From contig QZJX01000100.1 in the NCBI GenBank assembly GCA_003599395.1, positions 1-53,008 of the forward strand: 53,008 nt of DNA, read 5' to 3'. Position 1 is the first letter of the stretch; every line of letters starts with the position of its first letter. The position numbers and the translations under genes are program-made. The stretch comes from Ignavibacteriales bacterium (GTDB lineage Bacteria > Bacteroidota > Ignavibacteria > Ignavibacteriales > Melioribacteraceae). The notes under the pieces were generated by a model that searched no databases, was not told the DNA's origin, and saw only the letters and a list, made by a program, of their open reading frames with translations. Of this stretch, positions 19,064-48,258 are shown in pieces.

Positions 19064-20392
19064 TTAGACAGGATTTTCAAGTAAATTGATATTCCTTAAC
19101 TTCAACATCCATAAAAACATTCCAAACGTTAAAAGGCTATCGAAAGCTATCCCTGCAGCAAACATTAACGCAATTAGCATCAATGTTGGTTGATAGATAT
19201 CCAAAATGTATAAGATAAATAATACACCATAAAAAACTGTATTAATGATGACTGATTGAAAGAGCATGTATTTTGTTTTACCAATGCCATAAAAGATGCT
19301 ATCAATTGCGTTATTGAAAGCAAATAAAACATAGAAACCAACACTGATGATGGCGATATTATAGATATCTTGATAATTGGATAATTGAAGTACATCTCTC
19401 AAAAAAGGTCTCCATAAAGGAATAGATATAAACCAGATGATGACAATCAACATCGTGATAGCAAAATAACCTAAGGTTTTATCTCTAATCGCATTCTGAT
19501 CCTCACCACAATCACGTTTGACCAACTCACCAAGTTGTAAAACAGGAAGCAGTAACCATCCCCAAATGAAATTATTAGCTACCCAAAATGTTCCTTGCTC
19601 ACCGACAACATTAATCATTCGAATGATCATAAACATGAAAGCCATGTTTCTAACAAAACTTTCTATACCAGAAATCCCACCTATTCTACCAAGATCTTTA
19701 ATCCATAAAAATGAAAGTTTTGTTTTCGAAAATACATGAATATCTTCTCTTCTTAAAATAAAATACACGAGAACTAATAATATCGCATTAACAATTATGT
19801 TCGTCCATGCGATTCCGTTGACTCCTAACTGAAGAGAAACATTTAGGGTGGAAACAAAGAAAATATCAAATATCACTGATAGAATCATTTGAAGTAGCAA
19901 AACAAAATAGAGATATTTTTCCTTGTTAATGACAACTAAAACTACTATAGAAAACTTGACTAAAGTCATGAATACTGCTGCAACAGTTTCTAATCGAATG
20001 TAACTTGCAGTTTCAGAAATCAAGGTAAGATCTTGTGCCATAAATCGTATCAAGGGAACTGCAAAAACCATGATGATTAGTGACAATAATGCATATACTG
20101 AGCCTGTAAATAACAATCCCGTTTTGACCTTGTTTTCTAATTCACTTTTGTTCCTAATTGCCATTCCGATAAAATAAAACAATGGTAATATGATGGCTTC
20201 TTGAAGTATTTCATATAATAGATTAACCCAGGATAGCTGACTAGCGATGTTAAATCCCCAATCACCTGGTAATTGACCTAAAAGAAATATTCTTACTGTT
20301 GTATATATGGTTGGGATTAATCCCATAAGTAATAATGCATAAAACAGTTTCAAGTTAACTCTTTTCACTGATCGAATAATCTTTTTAAGCAT
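19064..20392 (-). CDS. MATE-family efflux transporter
   Basis: The protein has 442 residues and 12 predicted helices. The ATG at 20392 follows GGAGAA by 7 nt; an open frame extends upstream to 20470 but has no RBS and runs through a structured leader. The MATE fold shows in two similar halves, with the inter-half loop near KTKLSFLWIKDLGRIGGISGIESFVRN and helix 7 motifs FWVANNFIWGW. Members export cationic drugs or metabolites with Na+ or H+. The long leader with three abutting hairpins suggests RNA-based control. Confidence 0.88.
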   Translation of the reverse strand: MLKKIIRSVKRVNLKLFYALLLMGLIPTIYTTVRIFLLGQLPGDWGFNIASQLSWVNLLYEILQEAIILPLFYFIGMAIRNKSELENKVKTGLLFTGSVYALLSLIIMVFAVPLIRFMAQDLTLISETASYIRLETVAAVFMTLVKFSIVVLVVINKEKYLYFVLLLQMILSVIFDIFFVSTLNVSLQLGVNGIAWTNIIVNAILLVLVYFILRREDIHVFSKTKLSFLWIKDLGRIGGISGIESFVRNMAFMFMIIRMINVVGEQGTFWVANNFIWGWLLLPVLQLGELVKRDCGEDQNAIRDKTLGYFAITMLIVIIWFISIPLWRPFLRDVLQLSNYQDIYNIAIISVGFYVLFAFNNAIDSIFYGIGKTKYMLFQSVIINTVFYGVLFILYILDIYQPTLMLIALMFAAGIAFDSLLTFGMFLWMLKLRNINLLENPV

Positions 20393-20419
20393 ATATTTTC
20401 TCCATAAATGGTTATTTTT

Positions 20420-20527
20420 GATTAGCACTCTATAAATATGTAAATATCCATAAAGTGCAAAGTTGAACAACTTTAATACCAGAAACGGTATTAGCCTTGA
20501 TTAAGGCTATAATCACCAGTGCTAATC
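20420..20527 (-). ncRNA. Structured leader RNA (candidate riboswitch) of the MATE gene
   Basis: On the - strand, a perfect 10-bp outer stem (GATTAGCACT, complement of 20518-20527, with AGTGCTAATC, complement of 20420-20429) encloses three hairpins that touch without gaps. These are 20493-20508 (6 bp), 20475-20492 (6 bp) and 20459-20474 (7 bp). This makes a four- or five-way junction. Downstream, CCATTTATGG can pair on itself and partly cover the GGAG of the MATE ribosome site. I do not recognise it as a known riboswitch class. The outer stem starts in the stop codon region of the 55-residue gene, so it is intercistronic. Confidence 0.65.
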
Positions 20528-20689
20528 TTCATCGTCGTTTTGATACTTTTCATTATTTGGATTTAATTGATCTGCATGATTATCCAAATTTGCTTGATAT
20601 GCATCATTATTGGGATTGTTTTTGTTAGCATAGTCATCGCGTTGTTCTTGTGTATGAGTATGTCCACTCACTCCACCGCCTTTAGGCAT
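20522..20689 (-). CDS. Small Asn-rich hydrophilic protein (55 residues)
   Basis: Translation MPKGGGVSGHTHTQEQRDDY, then ANKNNPNNDAYQANLDNHAD, then QLNPNNEKYQNDDED. An AGGAGG sits 7 nt before the ATG. The GHTHTQ..DYAN..NPNN.AY.AN pattern, with NPNN repeated, resembles a recurring family of tiny uncharacterised bacterial proteins. No signal peptide or helix-forming hydrophobics are present, and it is probably disordered. It has a good promoter and is followed by the MATE leader RNA, so cotranscription is likely. Confidence 0.8.
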   Translation of the reverse strand: MPKGGGVSGHTHTQEQRDDYANKNNPNNDAYQANLDNHADQLNPNNEKYQNDDED

Positions 20690-20820: not shown

Positions 20821-21033
20821 TATTTTAAGTAAAGTCGCAGGGTTGTAAGTCCTTAAATAGTGAAATTTCCTTATTTAATCAGCCACATTATATTCCCAAC
20901 TGTGTGATAGGTCAATGGGTAATGAGTTATTAATTCTATTTATTCACCATGTTTCTCGTGTAATGCTTATGATGCCAAACGTGCAATGAAATGCTATGGG
21001 GATATATGAATGCAACAAAATACAAGAAAAAGA
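20821..21033. other. Gene-free spacer
   Basis: No frame with a ribosome site and no clear element was found in this part of the 600-bp interval between the 55-residue gene and the small RNA. The 21054-21252 part is equally empty. A short frame at 21089-21271 lacks an RBS and protein-like composition. Confidence 0.5.
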
Positions 21034-21287: not shown

Positions 21288-21380
21288 TTGAACTAACTTG
21301 TGCAGGGTTAAAGCTGGGTTACCGAATGGTAGTAGGCGAAAGCCAAGAATTCCTTTGCTCCTAGGGTTAGTTCTTTTTTT
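21288..21380 (+). ncRNA. Structured small RNA convergent with the DUF3644 gene
   Basis: Closing stem GAACTAAC (21290-21297) with GTTAGTTC (21366-21373), immediately followed by seven T (terminator). Inside lies a second helix, GGGTTAAAG (21305-21313) with CTTTGCTCC (21353-21361, one mismatch, one wobble). Within it are two tetraloop hairpins, TACC-GAAT-GGTA (21320-21331) and GGC-GAAA-GCC (21335-21344). A promoter ends 6 nt before the stem. No ribosome site or frame is present. It lacks the SRP RNA consensus, tmRNA, 6S and tRNA features, so no known family is claimed. Its T run overlaps the DUF3644 stop codon on the other strand. Confidence 0.75.
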
Positions 21381-36099: not shown

Positions 36100-36154
36100 A
36101 TCATAATCATCCTTTCTAATGGCTTTATTGCTATTGTACAAGGATGATTTGTTT

Positions 36155-36231
36155 TATTTGGTGGTCAAACTGATGACTTGTTATCTTTTTTCTGCAAAGG
36201 TTTCAATAGTCATCAGTTTGACCACCAAATA
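36155..36231. repeat. 24-bp perfect inverted repeat between excisionase and recombinase genes
   Basis: Arms 36155-36178 and 36208-36231 are exact reverse complements. The left arm contains GGTGGTCAAACTGATGAC and the right arm GTCATCAGTTTGACCACC; the spacer is 29 nt. It sits in the middle of the divergent promoter region (36100-36335), a typical place for an operator or a recombination control site. Confidence 0.92.
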
Positions 36232-36335: not shown

Positions 36336-37955
36336 ATGAGAAGCGTTGAAGTGATTAAAGCGAATCAACAAATCAATAAAGCAGATAATAGTGGTGAGAT
36401 TAGAAAGAAAAGAGTTTGTGCTTATGCCAGAGTATCTACAGATGATGAAGACCAAATCAACTCATACAAAGCTCAAATTGATGAGTATACAACAAGAATT
36501 AAGGAAAACAAAGAATGGACGTTTATTGGTATGTTTGCTGATCAAGGCATATCAGGAACTCAAACCAAGAAACGTCCTGAGTTCATGAAGATGATTGAAC
36601 TTGCCAGGAATCAAGAGATTGATTTAATCTTGGTAAAGTCCATCTCACGCTTTGCAAGAAATACAGTTGATGTCTTATCTTTAGTGAGAGAACTTAGATT
36701 CATCGGCTGCATCATCTACTTTGAAAAAGAAAATCTTTATTCAGATGATCCAAAGATTGATTTCACATTGGCAATTCTTTCATCTATCGCACAAGAGGAA
36801 TCCAGAAGTATATCGACCAATGTGAAATGGTCGATTGAAAAGCGGTTTAAAGCTGGAAAGATTCATGTTCCCAAAATCTATGGTTATCACAAACAAGAAG
36901 ATGGAAGTTTAATTGTAAATGATACTCAAGCAGAAATTGTTAAGCTCATCTTCTCTTTATTCATCGAAGGTTATAACATCAATGACATCAGAAAGATTTT
37001 AGAAGATAAAGGAAATCCTTCAAGTTCAAAACCCTTATGGAGTTATTCCAGTGTTAGAAGCATTTTAACCAATGAGAAGTACACTGGGAACACCATCTTA
37101 CAAAAAACGGTCACACTGGATTATTTAACCCATAAACAAATCCCTAATCACAACCTTGCAGATAAGTATTACATCAAAAACTCACATGAAGCGATTATCC
37201 CTTCTGCTGTATTTGAGATTGCTCAAACCATTTATAACGATAAAGAAAGATATTCGACGAACCTAGTCACAAAGTATCCTTTAACAAATCTCATTTACTG
37301 TAAAAAGTGTGGAAGGAGTTTAAAACGACATCATGTCGGAGAGGTCGGACGTCTTCCTAAGATTAATTTAGATTGTAAACATAATCCAAGAAATCCAAAA
37401 GCTTGTGATGCATCTTGGTTAGATGCAAATTTAGTTCAAGATACCATTGATCAAGCTATAAAGGATATGATATCTAATTCTAAAGTTTTTAAGAGAATCA
37501 TTGAATATTTAACACCAACATATCCTTTAAATGCACTTTATAAAAGATTAGAGCGTTTATCTGAAGAAATGGTTGAACTAACCAATATTAAAGCAAGTAC
37601 TGAACCCTATGATTTACCCAAAATTGAACATGAAGAAAAGATTCTAGATACGGAAATCAAGAAGATTCGAAAAGATATGTTACATCATCACAGAAACACT
37701 TCAACGATCAATACCTTAAGAGATTTAGAGAAGGATTTAACTCAAGACGTTCCTCTATTGCTTTATAAGAAACTCTTTGGACTTATCATTCATCAATCTG
37801 GTGAACTCATCTGTATCTTATCAAAAGCGCATGAAACTCATGAACTACTTCATCTCTTGAAAGAACAGACGAAGCGTCCAGTCTTCCTAGAAAACTTACA
37901 CATTGATTACAAACTAAAGAAAGGCATTAACTATAAGGTAATCCTCCATGAATAA
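36336..37955 (+). CDS. Large serine recombinase, first of a pair
   Basis: The protein has 539 residues; TAGGAGGA lies 9 nt before the ATG. The resolvase domain has the nucleophile in VCAYARVSTDDE, then LILVKSISRFARNTVD and AILSSIAQEESRSIS. The recombinase domain is at about 175-280 (KIYGYHKQEDGSLIV, SVRSILTNEKYTGNT). The zinc ribbon has CKKCGRSLKRHH and a later Cys pair (CKHNPRNPKACDASWL), and a coiled coil follows. It catalyses site-specific integration or excision. It overlaps the next recombinase by 8 nt, implying both are needed together. Confidence 0.95.
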   Translation: MRSVEVIKANQQINKADNSGEIRKKRVCAYARVSTDDEDQINSYKAQIDEYTTRIKENKEWTFIGMFADQGISGTQTKKRPEFMKMIELARNQEIDLILVKSISRFARNTVDVLSLVRELRFIGCIIYFEKENLYSDDPKIDFTLAILSSIAQEESRSISTNVKWSIEKRFKAGKIHVPKIYGYHKQEDGSLIVNDTQAEIVKLIFSLFIEGYNINDIRKILEDKGNPSSSKPLWSYSSVRSILTNEKYTGNTILQKTVTLDYLTHKQIPNHNLADKYYIKNSHEAIIPSAVFEIAQTIYNDKERYSTNLVTKYPLTNLIYCKKCGRSLKRHHVGEVGRLPKINLDCKHNPRNPKACDASWLDANLVQDTIDQAIKDMISNSKVFKRIIEYLTPTYPLNALYKRLERLSEEMVELTNIKASTEPYDLPKIEHEEKILDTEIKKIRKDMLHHHRNTSTINTLRDLEKDLTQDVPLLLYKKLFGLIIHQSGELICILSKAHETHELLHLLKEQTKRPVFLENLHIDYKLKKGINYKVILHE

Positions 37956-39465
37956 CGTCATCGCAATCCCTGTAGTACCTGGTATTAAGAAAAAGAAAAG
38001 AGTCGTCATTTACGCAAGAGTATCCACACTAGAAGGTAAACAAGATTCTAGCTATCAACTCCAGGTTGGAGAACTCACAAAAAGCATCCTCAAAAACCCC
38101 GATTACGAGCTTATCTGCATCTATGCGGATAAAGAGTCAGGTAAGACAAACAAACGCTCTAGTCTCCAAAAAATGATGGATTTAGCACGTGCTGGTGGTA
38201 TTGATTTGATTGTGACTAAATCCATCTCTAGGTTTGGTAGAAATACGATTAATGTCATTGGAGCAATTCAAGAATTAAGAAAGCTTGGGATTGAAATCTA
38301 CTTTGAAAAAGAGAATATGTCAACATTAGATCCAACGATTGATTTCATGTTAACGATACTTGCAGCATACGCTGAAGAGGAGTCACATCAGATATCGACT
38401 AATACCAAATGGTCTATCATGAAAAAGATGAAACGCGGTGGTAATACAACGACAAGACTATATGGTTATCATATCGAAAAGGAAGTATTTACCATTAAGG
38501 AAGATGAAGCAATAGTCGTTTCATTCATCTTTGATAGTTATCTTCAAGGCGTGGGCTATAAAGCTATGATTGATATATTGCATGAAAAAGGAATTAAATC
38601 CCCAAAGGGATGTGAGAAATGGAGCCAGTCCACTCTAGAAACGATGCTCACCAATGAGAAGTATTCTGGTGATAGTCTCTTACAAAAGACTTTATATGGA
38701 AAATCAATAAAAAATCATGATCATCGATTAGGCAGAGTCAATCAGTATTTAGTCAGAAATAACCATCCTGGAATTATCTCAAGGGATAAATTTGAAATGA
38801 TTCAGAAGATTAGAAATTCAAAAACTAAAAACGATCACAAAGGTGAGTCTCATGTTATCAGCCCTTATGCTTACTACTTCTATTCAGTTGATTTAGCAAA
38901 GTATTTAACAAGAATCGTAGAAAAGCATAATAAGAAATATGAAGTTGAGATGTTGCTAGGCAGTAAAAATGGACAAAGAGTATATCTTCGATTCGAATAC
39001 ATCAAAGAAGGCGTGATGCAAATGGCTAAATACTTGGTTGATAATAAGTCAGCAATCACAACTAAGCTTAAAGAAATGAAAAAGCCTACTTTAGCCAAAT
39101 TGGAATTGGAGAAAGAAAAGCTTTATAAGAGTCTCGAAGGATTGACCTTAAGTGAAAGACTTGAGACGTATGGACTAATCTCCGATGTCAGATTAAGGAT
39201 AGAAAAACTAGCTAAACTAGCTGAGATGATTGATGAATATATCATTATAGCTAAAAAACTATCTAAAGAGTTTGATATTGTTTTAGCTAAGCAGTTGTTT
39301 TCATCGTTTATTGTGAAGGAATCGGAAGTACATCTGTTAGTATCTTTAGGTAACGATAAAATTACTGAGGTTCCTTCTCAAGAGATTATAATCCACTCTA
39401 TCGATAGACAAATAACATATTTGTTCAGAAGAGAAAATCTAGGATTTAATCTATATTTGTTATAA
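37948..39465 (+). CDS. Large serine recombinase, second of a pair, lacking a zinc ribbon
   Basis: The protein has 505 residues. The catalytic domain is intact (VVIYARVSTLEG, IVTKSISRFGRNTI, ILAAYAEEESHQIS), and the recombinase domain follows (LYGYHIEKEVFTIKEDEA, TLETMLTNEKYSGDS). Where the first partner has its Cys4 ribbon this protein has none (HVISPYAYYFYSVDLAKYL). The final part is a long coiled coil. Losing the ribbon suggests it relies on its partner for DNA-end recognition, like paired recombinases in staphylococcal cassette elements. Confidence 0.93.
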   Translation: MNNVIAIPVVPGIKKKKRVVIYARVSTLEGKQDSSYQLQVGELTKSILKNPDYELICIYADKESGKTNKRSSLQKMMDLARAGGIDLIVTKSISRFGRNTINVIGAIQELRKLGIEIYFEKENMSTLDPTIDFMLTILAAYAEEESHQISTNTKWSIMKKMKRGGNTTTRLYGYHIEKEVFTIKEDEAIVVSFIFDSYLQGVGYKAMIDILHEKGIKSPKGCEKWSQSTLETMLTNEKYSGDSLLQKTLYGKSIKNHDHRLGRVNQYLVRNNHPGIISRDKFEMIQKIRNSKTKNDHKGESHVISPYAYYFYSVDLAKYLTRIVEKHNKKYEVEMLLGSKNGQRVYLRFEYIKEGVMQMAKYLVDNKSAITTKLKEMKKPTLAKLELEKEKLYKSLEGLTLSERLETYGLISDVRLRIEKLAKLAEMIDEYIIIAKKLSKEFDIVLAKQLFSSFIVKESEVHLLVSLGNDKITEVPSQEIIIHSIDRQITYLFRRENLGFNLYLL

Positions 39466-42536: not shown

Positions 42537-43211
42537 TTACATTCCGTTTTTAAGATTAATTCTACATTCATAGTCCTCAAAATTGTTTCTTCTTTCCCAT
42601 GCTTTATCGATATATCCTTGCATATCGCTGATAAAATCTGACCATTTAACTAGTTGCATATATGATCCCGTATCTGAATCATAAACTTTGTCACAACAAC
42701 CTTTATTGCATTTATGATCTCCATTTCTCAAATTAAAAGTATTATCTTGAATCATTAATGGGAATTTAGGAGTGAAATGTGTTGTTGTTCCACATTCTTT
42801 TTTCTCCAAATAAAACGTATAATCCCCTCCGGCTTCAATAGGCTTTAAACTGGAGTTTAGTGGTAAGTAAACCCCAATTAAACCATTACGAGTCATGTTT
42901 TGTTCTTCTTTATAAGTTCGTTCTCGTAACGATAAAGAGATTTCCCATGGAATCCATTTACTGTGTTTAGTATTTGGAGTGATTAAAACAACAGTTATAG
43001 ACGATTTTTTAATATATGGTGCGATTTTTTGATAAATTTCATCCTCTGAATAATCTTCCATATCAAACGATTCATCGTCTTCTCCTTTATGTCGTAATCC
43101 GTTCTCACCTAATCGCTCGATTAAATCATCTCTAAAATTAAACTTGCCTTCTCTTCCTTCAACTACATCACTATATTTATAACTTACAAATACTTTTTTC
43201 GGTGTACTCAT
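42537..43211 (-). CDS. thsB: Thoeris ThsB-type TIR protein
   Basis: The protein has 224 residues. The TIR/DUF1863 fold shows in KKVFVSYKYSD (strand A), IAPYIKKSSITVVLITPNT and SKWIPWEISLSL with the catalytic Glu90. In Thoeris, ThsB senses infection and converts NAD+ into a cyclic ADP-ribose signal that activates ThsA. It starts 6 nt after thsA with AAGGGGGC as RBS. A Cys-rich stretch CNKGCCDKVYD (about 170) is unusual. The operon mate confirms the role. Confidence 0.9.
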   Translation of the reverse strand: MSTPKKVFVSYKYSDVVEGREGKFNFRDDLIERLGENGLRHKGEDDESFDMEDYSEDEIYQKIAPYIKKSSITVVLITPNTKHSKWIPWEISLSLRERTYKEEQNMTRNGLIGVYLPLNSSLKPIEAGGDYTFYLEKKECGTTTHFTPKFPLMIQDNTFNLRNGDHKCNKGCCDKVYDSDTGSYMQLVKWSDFISDMQGYIDKAWERRNNFEDYECRINLKNGM

Positions 43212-43217
43212 AAAAAT

Positions 43218-44627
43218 TTAAGCCCCCTTATTAATAATTTCTAAAACTGTATTGATGATTTTGTCTATATCAAGCTCATTGGATAGTAATTCTATATATT
43301 CTTTAAGGTATGCATATTTATCTAAATTTTCCGATACAATTTTCATAATTCCTTGAGCAGCATAACCTGTGCTAGCAATTGGAATTATTGTTAATCCTAG
43401 TTTATCAGCGATTTCAAACTCATTGTAAACACCCTTTGCTTCTTTAACTTCCCCATTCACAATTTTATTACCAAACACAAAAATCGCAAAATTTGACAAT
43501 CCAATTATTTTTTTTCTATGACCCTTCCATATTTCTTGTGAATCTTCATCTTTTTCAATTTTTTGTGGAAATGGGTGAAGCTCAAAATGATTAGATACAT
43601 CTTGCTTGGTTGGATCTATTGCAAGTGATGCACCTTCAATCACGAAACCTCCGATACCTAAACCATAGCCAGAAATGATTTTGTTCCCATTTTGAACTAA
43701 TCTTTTAGATAAAGATTGTATGAAGGTTTTCGTTTTATTAATATCCCATTGATCGCCATATTCAAATGCACTCCCTGAAATAAATACATTATGTATTTTT
43801 AATCTATGTTCCAATTCTATTAGAAAACTTGTGATTTCGGAAAATTCATCTACAATGATAGGTTCCAAATAGTAGTATGATAAATCCTCAATTTGTAGTT
43901 GTTGCTTAATCTTTTGATACTCAAAATCTTCATCACTAGTGCACTCTTCTCTACTGATTTTTTTAACAAAATAATAATGTGTTCTAGAGTTTCTAGAAAG
44001 TTTTATTCTAATCTTTGCTAATAATTTTTCGAAATTAGGATCGCTAAAACTATATCCTATAAACAAAAAGGTTGATGAAACTAATTCTCCTATCAACTTA
44101 TCTATAAAAAAACCGCGATTTCCAGAAAACTCCTCATAATCGTCTCTAGTTAATACTGCGTCGTTTGGATTATTTGCATCTCCATGAATTTTGTATAAAA
44201 CCACATCGCGATTGTATATATTATTACTTAAGTCATCGTGATATATCTTCACATCCACGACTTTATTTAATTTTTTTAAAGTTCTTTCAATCAATAAGTC
44301 GTAATTTGTAGTCCAGTAATAACGAATGGGTAATCTGGATAAAACATCCATATCATTGCTATATTTATTATCTTCAAGAAATTTATTTTTAATTAATTCG
44401 TTTATATAGTTCCGGTTTTTCTTTTTATTATTATATGCGTATTGTACTAAAGCAATCATATCTGTTTCTTTTTTTACATCAAGTCCTAATTCTTCAACAA
44501 TTTCAGAAGCTAATTCTTTCCAATCTGGATAACCTGCTCCTTTCGATAATCCTGCTCCAGCAAAAACTGATAAGTTATTTCGTTTAATTTCTTCTAGTAA
44601 ATTTTTTAGTATTGCTTCTTTTTTCAT
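43218..44627 (-). CDS. thsA: Thoeris ThsA, SIR2-SLOG NADase
   Basis: The protein has 469 residues, close to the 476 of the Bacillus cereus enzyme. The SIR2 domain starts VFAGAGLSKGAGYPDW (21-36) and keeps TTNYD with Asn108 and KIHGD with His148, equivalent to the known catalytic Asn/His with a constant offset of four. The C-terminal SLOG/STALD domain is at about 285-440 (VFISGSAFEYG, ISGYGLGIGGFVIEGA, FVFGN, GVYNEFEIADKLG). ThsA depletes NAD+ when the SLOG domain binds the ThsB signal, stopping phage at the cost of the cell. The ATG at 44627 follows GGGGAGAG. Confidence 0.96.
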   Translation of the reverse strand: MKKEAILKNLLEEIKRNNLSVFAGAGLSKGAGYPDWKELASEIVEELGLDVKKETDMIALVQYAYNNKKKNRNYINELIKNKFLEDNKYSNDMDVLSRLPIRYYWTTNYDLLIERTLKKLNKVVDVKIYHDDLSNNIYNRDVVLYKIHGDANNPNDAVLTRDDYEEFSGNRGFFIDKLIGELVSSTFLFIGYSFSDPNFEKLLAKIRIKLSRNSRTHYYFVKKISREECTSDEDFEYQKIKQQLQIEDLSYYYLEPIIVDEFSEITSFLIELEHRLKIHNVFISGSAFEYGDQWDINKTKTFIQSLSKRLVQNGNKIISGYGLGIGGFVIEGASLAIDPTKQDVSNHFELHPFPQKIEKDEDSQEIWKGHRKKIIGLSNFAIFVFGNKIVNGEVKEAKGVYNEFEIADKLGLTIIPIASTGYAAQGIMKIVSENLDKYAYLKEYIELLSNELDIDKIINTVLEIINKGA

Positions 44628-44669
44628 TTTCTCTCCCCTAAAATACAATATTTTAAACATGTACTATAA

Positions 44670-46776: not shown

Positions 46777-48258
46777 TTATCGTTTTCTGTCGTATTTACT
46801 ATTACTGTTCTTCTTAAAATCATAGAACTTATCACTTGTTTTCTTTGATTTTGGTGAATTGGGTTTTTGAGAAGACTTATTTGTTTCCTCTTTTTTAGGA
46901 CCTAGCTTTTCTTGTTTCTTGGAAGGATTGGTTGAAACATAATCCTTCGTGAAACGATTCAAGTCCATCGGTTTCTTCTCACTTGTTGAGGGTGAGGGTT
47001 TCGTTCTACTTGCCTTAGGTTGTTGACTTAAAGGTTTTGTTCTTGACCCTTGAGGTTGTTCTCTAAATGGCTTCTCTTGTTTTTTCTTGGGTTGTTCTTG
47101 TTTATTTCCATTGTCTTTAATCACCACATGAAAGGGTTGTTCAGTAACAAGAGGTATCGGCATTTGAATCAGCTTTTCAATCGCTTTAAGCAAATTCATC
47201 TCATCATGAGAACAAAATGAATAGGCTTCGCCTGATAACCCTGCTCTACCTGTTCTGCCCATTCTATGAACATAGGTTTCTGGTGTTTCCGGTAAATCAA
47301 AGTTGATGACATGAGACAGTTCATCAATATCGATCCCACGTGCTGCAATATCTGTAGCTACCAAAACTCTAAGTTTTCTATTCTTGAAATCTAAAAGGGC
47401 TTGTTGCCGCTTATTTTGCGATTTATTCCCGTGAATCGCATCCGCCTTAACACCATAAGCAATGAGTTCTTTAACAAGCTTATTCGCGCCATGTTTGGTT
47501 CTAGTAAAGACTAAAACAGAGACTAATTTAGGATTGACAAGAAGATCTAAAAGTAACTTAAACTTATCTTTTTTAGGGACATAATATAAGGACTGTTTGA
47601 TTTTATCGATCATCGCTTCAGGAGGGGTGACTTCAATTCTCACGGGATCTTTCAGTAAATCATTGGCAAGTTTTAAGATCTCATTTGGGATAGTTGCTGA
47701 AAAGAGCATCGTCTGTCTTTCTTTAGGAATTGTTGAGACGATCTTTCTCACATCGTTGATAAATCCCATATCGAGCATCCGGTCTGCTTCATCTAAGACA
47801 AAATACTCAATCGTATCTAAAAAGACGAGTTTTTGATTCATGAGATCAAGAAGTCTTCCTGGGGTTGCGATTAAGACATCAAGTCCTTTTTTTAAGGCGA
47901 CTTCTTGATTTTTTTGTGAAACGCCACCGTAGATGACTTCAGCTTTAATGTGAAGATCTCTGCTATAATTTCGAAAGCTTTCTTTAATCTGTTCTGCGAG
48001 TTCACGTGTGGGTGCGAGAACTAAAGCTTTGATTTCTCTTTTGGTATGCTCCTCAGTTCTTTTTTGATAAAGTGCTTGAATAATGGGAATAGCGAATGCT
48101 GCGGTTTTCCCTGTGCCTGTTTGAGCGCTGGCGAGCATGTCATGCCCTTTAAGTAAGACAGGAATAGCTTGTTCCTGAATGGGGGAAGGTTCTGTATATC
48201 CTTCGTAGGCGACTGCCTTTAAAATGGGGGATATAATCCCCAGTTGTTCAAATGTCAT
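46777..48258 (-). CDS. DEAD-box RNA helicase with long basic tail
   Basis: The protein has 493 residues. The order of motifs is complete: Q motif (FEQLGI...PSPIQEQAIP), motif I AQTGTGKT (45-52), PTRELAEQ, TPGRLLDL, DEAD (about 154), SAT, then VLVFTRTKHGANKL, VLVATDIAARGIDI and HRMGRTGRAG. The last 110 residues are Lys/Gln/Ser-rich and disordered, typical of CshA/CsdA-like or RhlE-like helicases that bind RNA non-specifically in ribosome assembly and mRNA decay. The leader is about 190 nt and has an attenuator-like hairpin. Confidence 0.95.
   Translation of the reverse strand: MTFEQLGIISPILKAVAYEGYTEPSPIQEQAIPVLLKGHDMLASAQTGTGKTAAFAIPIIQALYQKRTEEHTKREIKALVLAPTRELAEQIKESFRNYSRDLHIKAEVIYGGVSQKNQEVALKKGLDVLIATPGRLLDLMNQKLVFLDTIEYFVLDEADRMLDMGFINDVRKIVSTIPKERQTMLFSATIPNEILKLANDLLKDPVRIEVTPPEAMIDKIKQSLYYVPKKDKFKLLLDLLVNPKLVSVLVFTRTKHGANKLVKELIAYGVKADAIHGNKSQNKRQQALLDFKNRKLRVLVATDIAARGIDIDELSHVINFDLPETPETYVHRMGRTGRAGLSGEAYSFCSHDEMNLLKAIEKLIQMPIPLVTEQPFHVVIKDNGNKQEQPKKKQEKPFREQPQGSRTKPLSQQPKASRTKPSPSTSEKKPMDLNRFTKDYVSTNPSKKQEKLGPKKEETNKSSQKPNSPKSKKTSDKFYDFKKNSNSKYDRKR

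Follow-up and report, generated by a model that had tools for sequence, protein, structure and literature searches.

The window analysed here, meaning the whole stretch of 53,008 nucleotides, carries on its minus strand an operon with the order promoter, structured RNA R0, 55-aa open reading frame (ORF), structured RNA R1 and MATE gene. The predicted sigma-70 promoter lies at 20915–20887 (TTGACC-17-TATAAT, 11/12, by consensus match only) and is followed by R0 at 20876–20712 and by the ORF, encoding MPKGGGVSGHTHTQEQ...NDDED, at 20689–20522. R1 was delineated by sequence, inverted-repeat and fold analysis and spans 20527–20420. The gene for a MATE-family transporter of 442 aa occupies 20392–19064, with its ATG at 20392 and a Shine-Dalgarno sequence GGAG at 20403–20400; the protein scores 562 bits against NF045539 (cut-off 350), and its score against PF01554 stays under that family's cut-off. 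The initial annotation had recognised an RNA-level structure in front of the MATE gene, and R1 does lie on the MATE strand. Its placement of R1 in the 5′ leader of that gene does not hold: the stop codon of the 55-aa ORF falls inside the outer stem, and R1 is therefore intercistronic. Neither the ORF nor the second structured RNA at 20876–20712 had been noted.

The outer stem of R1, P1, pairs 20527–20518 with 20429–20420 over 10 bp that are 100% complementary, as first described, with arms 88 nt apart, and its strand GATTAGCACT contains the TAG stop (20524–20522) of the ORF. Both sequence and fold confirm the three hairpins reported at 20459–20474, 20475–20492 and 20493–20508 with zero bases between them; on the minus strand the fold draws them as hairpins A, B and C at 20509–20492, 20491–20476 and 20475–20459. 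When R1 is folded as the minus strand, it gains a fourth hairpin, D (20458–20425), of up to 15 bp; the 3′ strand of P1 is contested by the outer 5 bp of D (GCACU/AGUGC). In 5000 dinucleotide shuffles of R1, a 10-bp stem with the span of P1 arose 11 times, three abutting 5-bp hairpins arose twice, and both features together never, which upholds the earlier statement that the structure exceeds chance. The minimum free energy relative to dinucleotide shuffles corresponds to z = −5.1 for the minus and −4.6 for the plus strand. The minus strand is taken as the functional one because it carries the MATE gene, the small ORF and the G-U pairs.

R1 matches no Rfam family, and we file it under none. A search with Rfam 15 at gathering threshold gave no match over the whole window, in agreement with the initial annotation, which could name no class; the permissive threshold (E up to 10) yielded chance-level matches only, and ARAGORN found no tRNA or tmRNA genes in the window region or in the counterpart locus described below. 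The guanidine-IV riboswitch and its Gd4v variant are RNAs that lie near MATE-type genes and are equipped with an intrinsic terminator (PMC7736828, PMC9788692). The window resembles them in that an RNA element and an intrinsic terminator adjoin a MATE-type gene; it differs in its P1 with three abutting hairpins, its four-segment swap, the lack of an Rfam match and the intercistronic position of R1. The proposal that R1 itself is a ligand-binding riboswitch is unsupported: no aptamer core is definable from two sequences, and no ligand-binding signature is visible.

The same order of small ORF, R1 and MATE recurs in the Bacillota metagenome-assembled genome Emb289P3bin92 (locus L025), the sole one to show it among twelve MATE loci in named genomes. 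Between this locus and the window the small ORF is 75% and the MATE protein 54% identical, and a promoter-like TTTACA-17-TATTAT stands at the matching place (by eye). In the R1 counterpart (L025 2791–2910) all 21 of the 21 compared pairs stand, two through double (compensatory) and four through single changes, and sliding the partner strand by 1–3 columns lowers the pairing to 24–41%; for these two sequences, covariation is not significant by shuffles of 3′ letters (124/500). L025 retains TAGCACTGGT, both central hairpins, the closing strand AGTGCTA and the outer pairing of hairpin D (GCAC...GUGC), and the junction sequence common to both loci comprises TAGCACTGGT, TACCG, GGTATT and GTTC; hairpins C and D align poorly. 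The TAG stop of the ORF occupies the same place in P1 at both loci. After this stop, both loci read CAC TGG and then a second in-frame stop (TAG CAC TGG TGA at 20524–20513 on the minus strand of the window, TAG CAC TGG TAG in L025).

In sense-strand orientation the wobble pairs are G-U, so selection acts on the RNA. This wobble pattern also argues against R1 as a DNA-level element, that is, a recombination site or mobile-element remnant (integron attC-like, inverted-repeat) bordering an acquired cassette. The variable island with serine recombinases at 36336–39465 and the tyrosine-type integrase upstream in L025 (both by eye) would fit such an origin, which we nevertheless regard as very improbable, given that R1 is a single copy in its genome and that the attC R-box consensus is not seen at the stem ends by eye. 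R1 as a repeat or mobile element in general was rejected on the same copy number.

Searches beyond these two loci delimit the distribution of R1. The initial annotation had suggested checking homologous MATE leaders for the stems; L025 keeps them, and the three closer MATE orthologs (L021–L023, 68–76% identical) have neither R1 nor the small ORF, and are without R0 as well. A covariance model of R1, run on 250 genomes related to that of L025, on 391 of its class and on 160 of the Acholeplasma order, recovered only L025 itself. R1 was not found at any other small-ORF locus and is seen only with the ORF–MATE pair. Its sequence patterns had no match in 2.9 million viral contigs, and a search by way of MATE in viral contigs and plasmids found none either. 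Two candidates were discarded: a match of the R1 model at L080, a false positive inside a coding region, and a BLAST match in plasmids, 26 nt long and AT-rich, which we take as chance. The 400 bases upstream of the MATE gene at 6001 in L023 (MATE 68% identical) hold another kind of leader, one whose outer stem, ATATTAGGG/CCCTAATAT, has 9 bp.

The closest MATE protein is that of Acholeplasma equifetale (76% identical), and both MATE and small ORF are absent from 96 other genomes around the assembly under which the window is filed. From this absence and this best match we infer that the contig probably comes from an Acholeplasma relative and was misbinned. For the window gene at 46777–48258, the genome listed as the same species gave partial matches only (66–69% identity), and two genomes of the same genus gave no match. 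Elsewhere in the window, a defence island at 21379–44660 contains PDC-S19 (DUF3644), type I restriction-modification genes, two recombinase-like genes at 36336–39465 and a Thoeris pair assigned by PADLOC (ThsB 42537–43211, ThsA 43218–44660). The most stable 108-nt fold of the window (36121–36228, −43 kcal/mol on the plus strand) lies just before the first recombinase gene.

We then consider how R1 could reach the MATE gene. A CCATTTATGG hairpin next to R1 had been proposed to mask the ribosome site of MATE, a claim that the folds do not support: the stem has only 3 bp, engages UGG in the Shine-Dalgarno region intermittently while GAG stays free, and is not kept in L025. With a ribosome placed on the ORF stop codon, folding of the window predicts an almost unchanged openness of the MATE Shine-Dalgarno sequence, and because it barely changes, the window shows no direct way for R1 to affect MATE translation. 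This predicted absence of an effect favours the main rival to the interpretation given below, namely that R1 is a 3′-end or processing element of the small-ORF message that replaces the plain terminator of other family members and protects the 3′ end of the message or is cut there, with MATE expressed by readthrough. Most other small ORFs indeed end in an ordinary terminator hairpin where R1 would be, and L025 has a long, strong GC-rich hairpin with a weak U-run 3′ of R1, which the window lacks. Conservation of the junction sequence (TAGCACTGGT, TACCG, GGTATT, GTTC) beyond the needs of a stability hairpin speaks against this role, as does the occurrence of R1 only together with MATE, so that we consider it possible but doubtful.

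R0, upstream of the 55-aa ORF, is a predicted four-segment transcription attenuator. On the minus strand it consists of segment 1 (20865–20857), three hairpins (20852–20841, 20838–20813 and 20811–20796), segment 2 (20795–20780), segment 3 (20750–20735) and segment 4 with the U-tract (20732–20712), preceded by a 5′ stretch AAATAAGG (20876–20869) that can pair with the U-tract. In one state, segments 1 and 2 pair around the three hairpins and segments 3 and 4 form an intrinsic terminator; in the alternative state, 2 pairs with 3 and 1 with 4, and the U-tract is bound by the 5′ AAATAAGG. In the window, the two states differ little in predicted energy (−40.4 vs −42.2 kcal/mol). The alternative pairings 2:3, 1:4 and 5′ end with U-tract exist in both the window and L025, and in both R0 is predicted to place before the ORF a terminator together with a mutually exclusive antiterminator, the hallmark of an attenuator.

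A model built from L025 alone locates R0 of the window where it should lie (28.3 bits, E 7.5e-7) with no non-standard pair, in a search of 9.5 kb with filters off; default filters miss the window copy. In a structure-guided alignment fitted to the L025 structure, 37 compared pairs stand, 13 by compensatory double changes, a result reached in 0/500 shuffles. Applied to the 160 Acholeplasma-order genomes, the R0 model gave five weak matches, of which those inspected are plain terminators. R0 shares with trp-type four-segment attenuators the mutually exclusive pairings 1:2, 2:3 and 3:4 and the U-tract. It differs from them by the additional 1:4 and 5′-end:U-tract pairing of the antiterminated state and by the leader peptide: inspection by eye of the window found no ORF with a Shine-Dalgarno sequence and a standard start over segment 1. 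As a predicted switch, R0 is clearer and better supported than R1, and it is R0, not R1, that most resembles a riboswitch- or attenuator-like expression platform within the operon.

The terminator platform in R0, and the build of R0 and R1 alike as multi-helix junctions with a P1 around three abutting hairpins, would suit a metabolite-binding riboswitch for the MATE substrate, formed by R1 alone or in tandem with R0, the more so as riboswitches are known to target MATE genes (guanidine-IV, PMC7736828). Of the unpaired bases in the two sequences, some are kept in R1 (GGT, GTTC) and hardly any in R0. We judge the riboswitch reading unlikely. Rfam has no match, closer MATE orthologs contain neither R0 nor R1, and the loops of R0 are not conserved between the window and L025. 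Attenuators, moreover, precede the ORF also where MATE is absent. A bolder version, in which R0 and R1 would be two instances of a new class of junction-RNA sensor jointly gating an efflux operon, R0 controlling transcription of the small ORF and R1, entered at the stop codon, the pump, would make pump synthesis dependent on both ligand and translation of the 55-aa ORF; we give it a slim chance.

The 55-aa protein belongs to an Asn-rich family with homologs in 14/160 Acholeplasma-order genomes and in phage contigs; the homolog in L043 is 78% identical. Some homologs neighbour genes named, by annotation or by eye, as tape-measure or ParB-like. Because this conserved family is found without pumps, the protein is more than a leader peptide. 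The leaders of two phage contigs (L059 and L085) each combine an outer stem and a terminator with a competing pairing, in a logic similar to that of R0, and the L043 leader contains a terminator and a 2:3 alternative, its segment 1 being uncertain. Since attenuators precede the ORF in two phage contigs too, attenuation appears to belong to the ORF family and not to MATE. In L059 and L085, the ribosome site of the small ORF has a possible pairing partner in a 5′ CCTCC stretch of the leader.

The nearest working analogue of the window operon is bmrB-bmrCD of Bacillus subtilis, which is controlled by ribosome-mediated transcription attenuation with terminator and antiterminator inside bmrB (PMC4191407). 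In both systems a small ORF stands right before a multidrug pump and a switchable RNA structure lies at the ORF end; in the window and in L025 the predicted ORF ends within such a structure, its TAG being part of P1. The two systems differ in that (i) the terminator of the window precedes the ORF, in R0, and the element after the ORF has none, (ii) the pump is an ABC transporter there and a MATE transporter here, and (iii) the 55-aa protein is one member of a broader family. With the bmrB precedent and a stop codon inside the switchable stem, antibiotic-responsive attenuation of this type, in which slow translation of the 55-aa ORF would refold R1 and raise MATE, can be envisaged. We hold it to be rather unlikely, however, as the window has no terminator inside the ORF or right after it and the protein family is conserved also without pumps. 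A terminator of the bmrB type, overlapping or following the leader ORF, was not found in the window in the interval from the ORF to MATE, where L025 has the GC hairpin with its weak U-run.

The structures of R0 and R1, the recurrence of both and the overlap of R1 with the stop codon come directly from the computation. We tentatively favour the reading of R1 as a conserved RNA that acts in cis and separates the two genes of an attenuator-controlled small-ORF/MATE operon, in which R0 gates and R1 sets the MATE level; it supposes in vivo switching of R0, an action of R1 on MATE and triggering by the ribosome. R0 would determine whether the polymerase reads through the terminator that precedes the ORF, with the OFF state given by stem 1:2 and terminator 3:4 and the ON state by antiterminator 2:3 together with 1:4 and the U-tract paired to the 5′ AAATAAGG. 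R1 would set the amount of MATE relative to the small protein, most likely through a translation-coupled effect. As P1 begins at the stop codon of the ORF, a ribosome that terminates there would have to open this stem, after which its released 3′ strand may extend hairpin D; on an untranslated message, the R1 junction would close.

The joint retention, in two distant bacteria, of an upstream attenuator and of a structured RNA absent from Rfam whose start is a stop codon would constitute a new way of arranging the control of a drug or metabolite pump. It would also provide the first regulatory handle on a family of small Asn-rich proteins that occurs in phages and in relatives of Acholeplasma.
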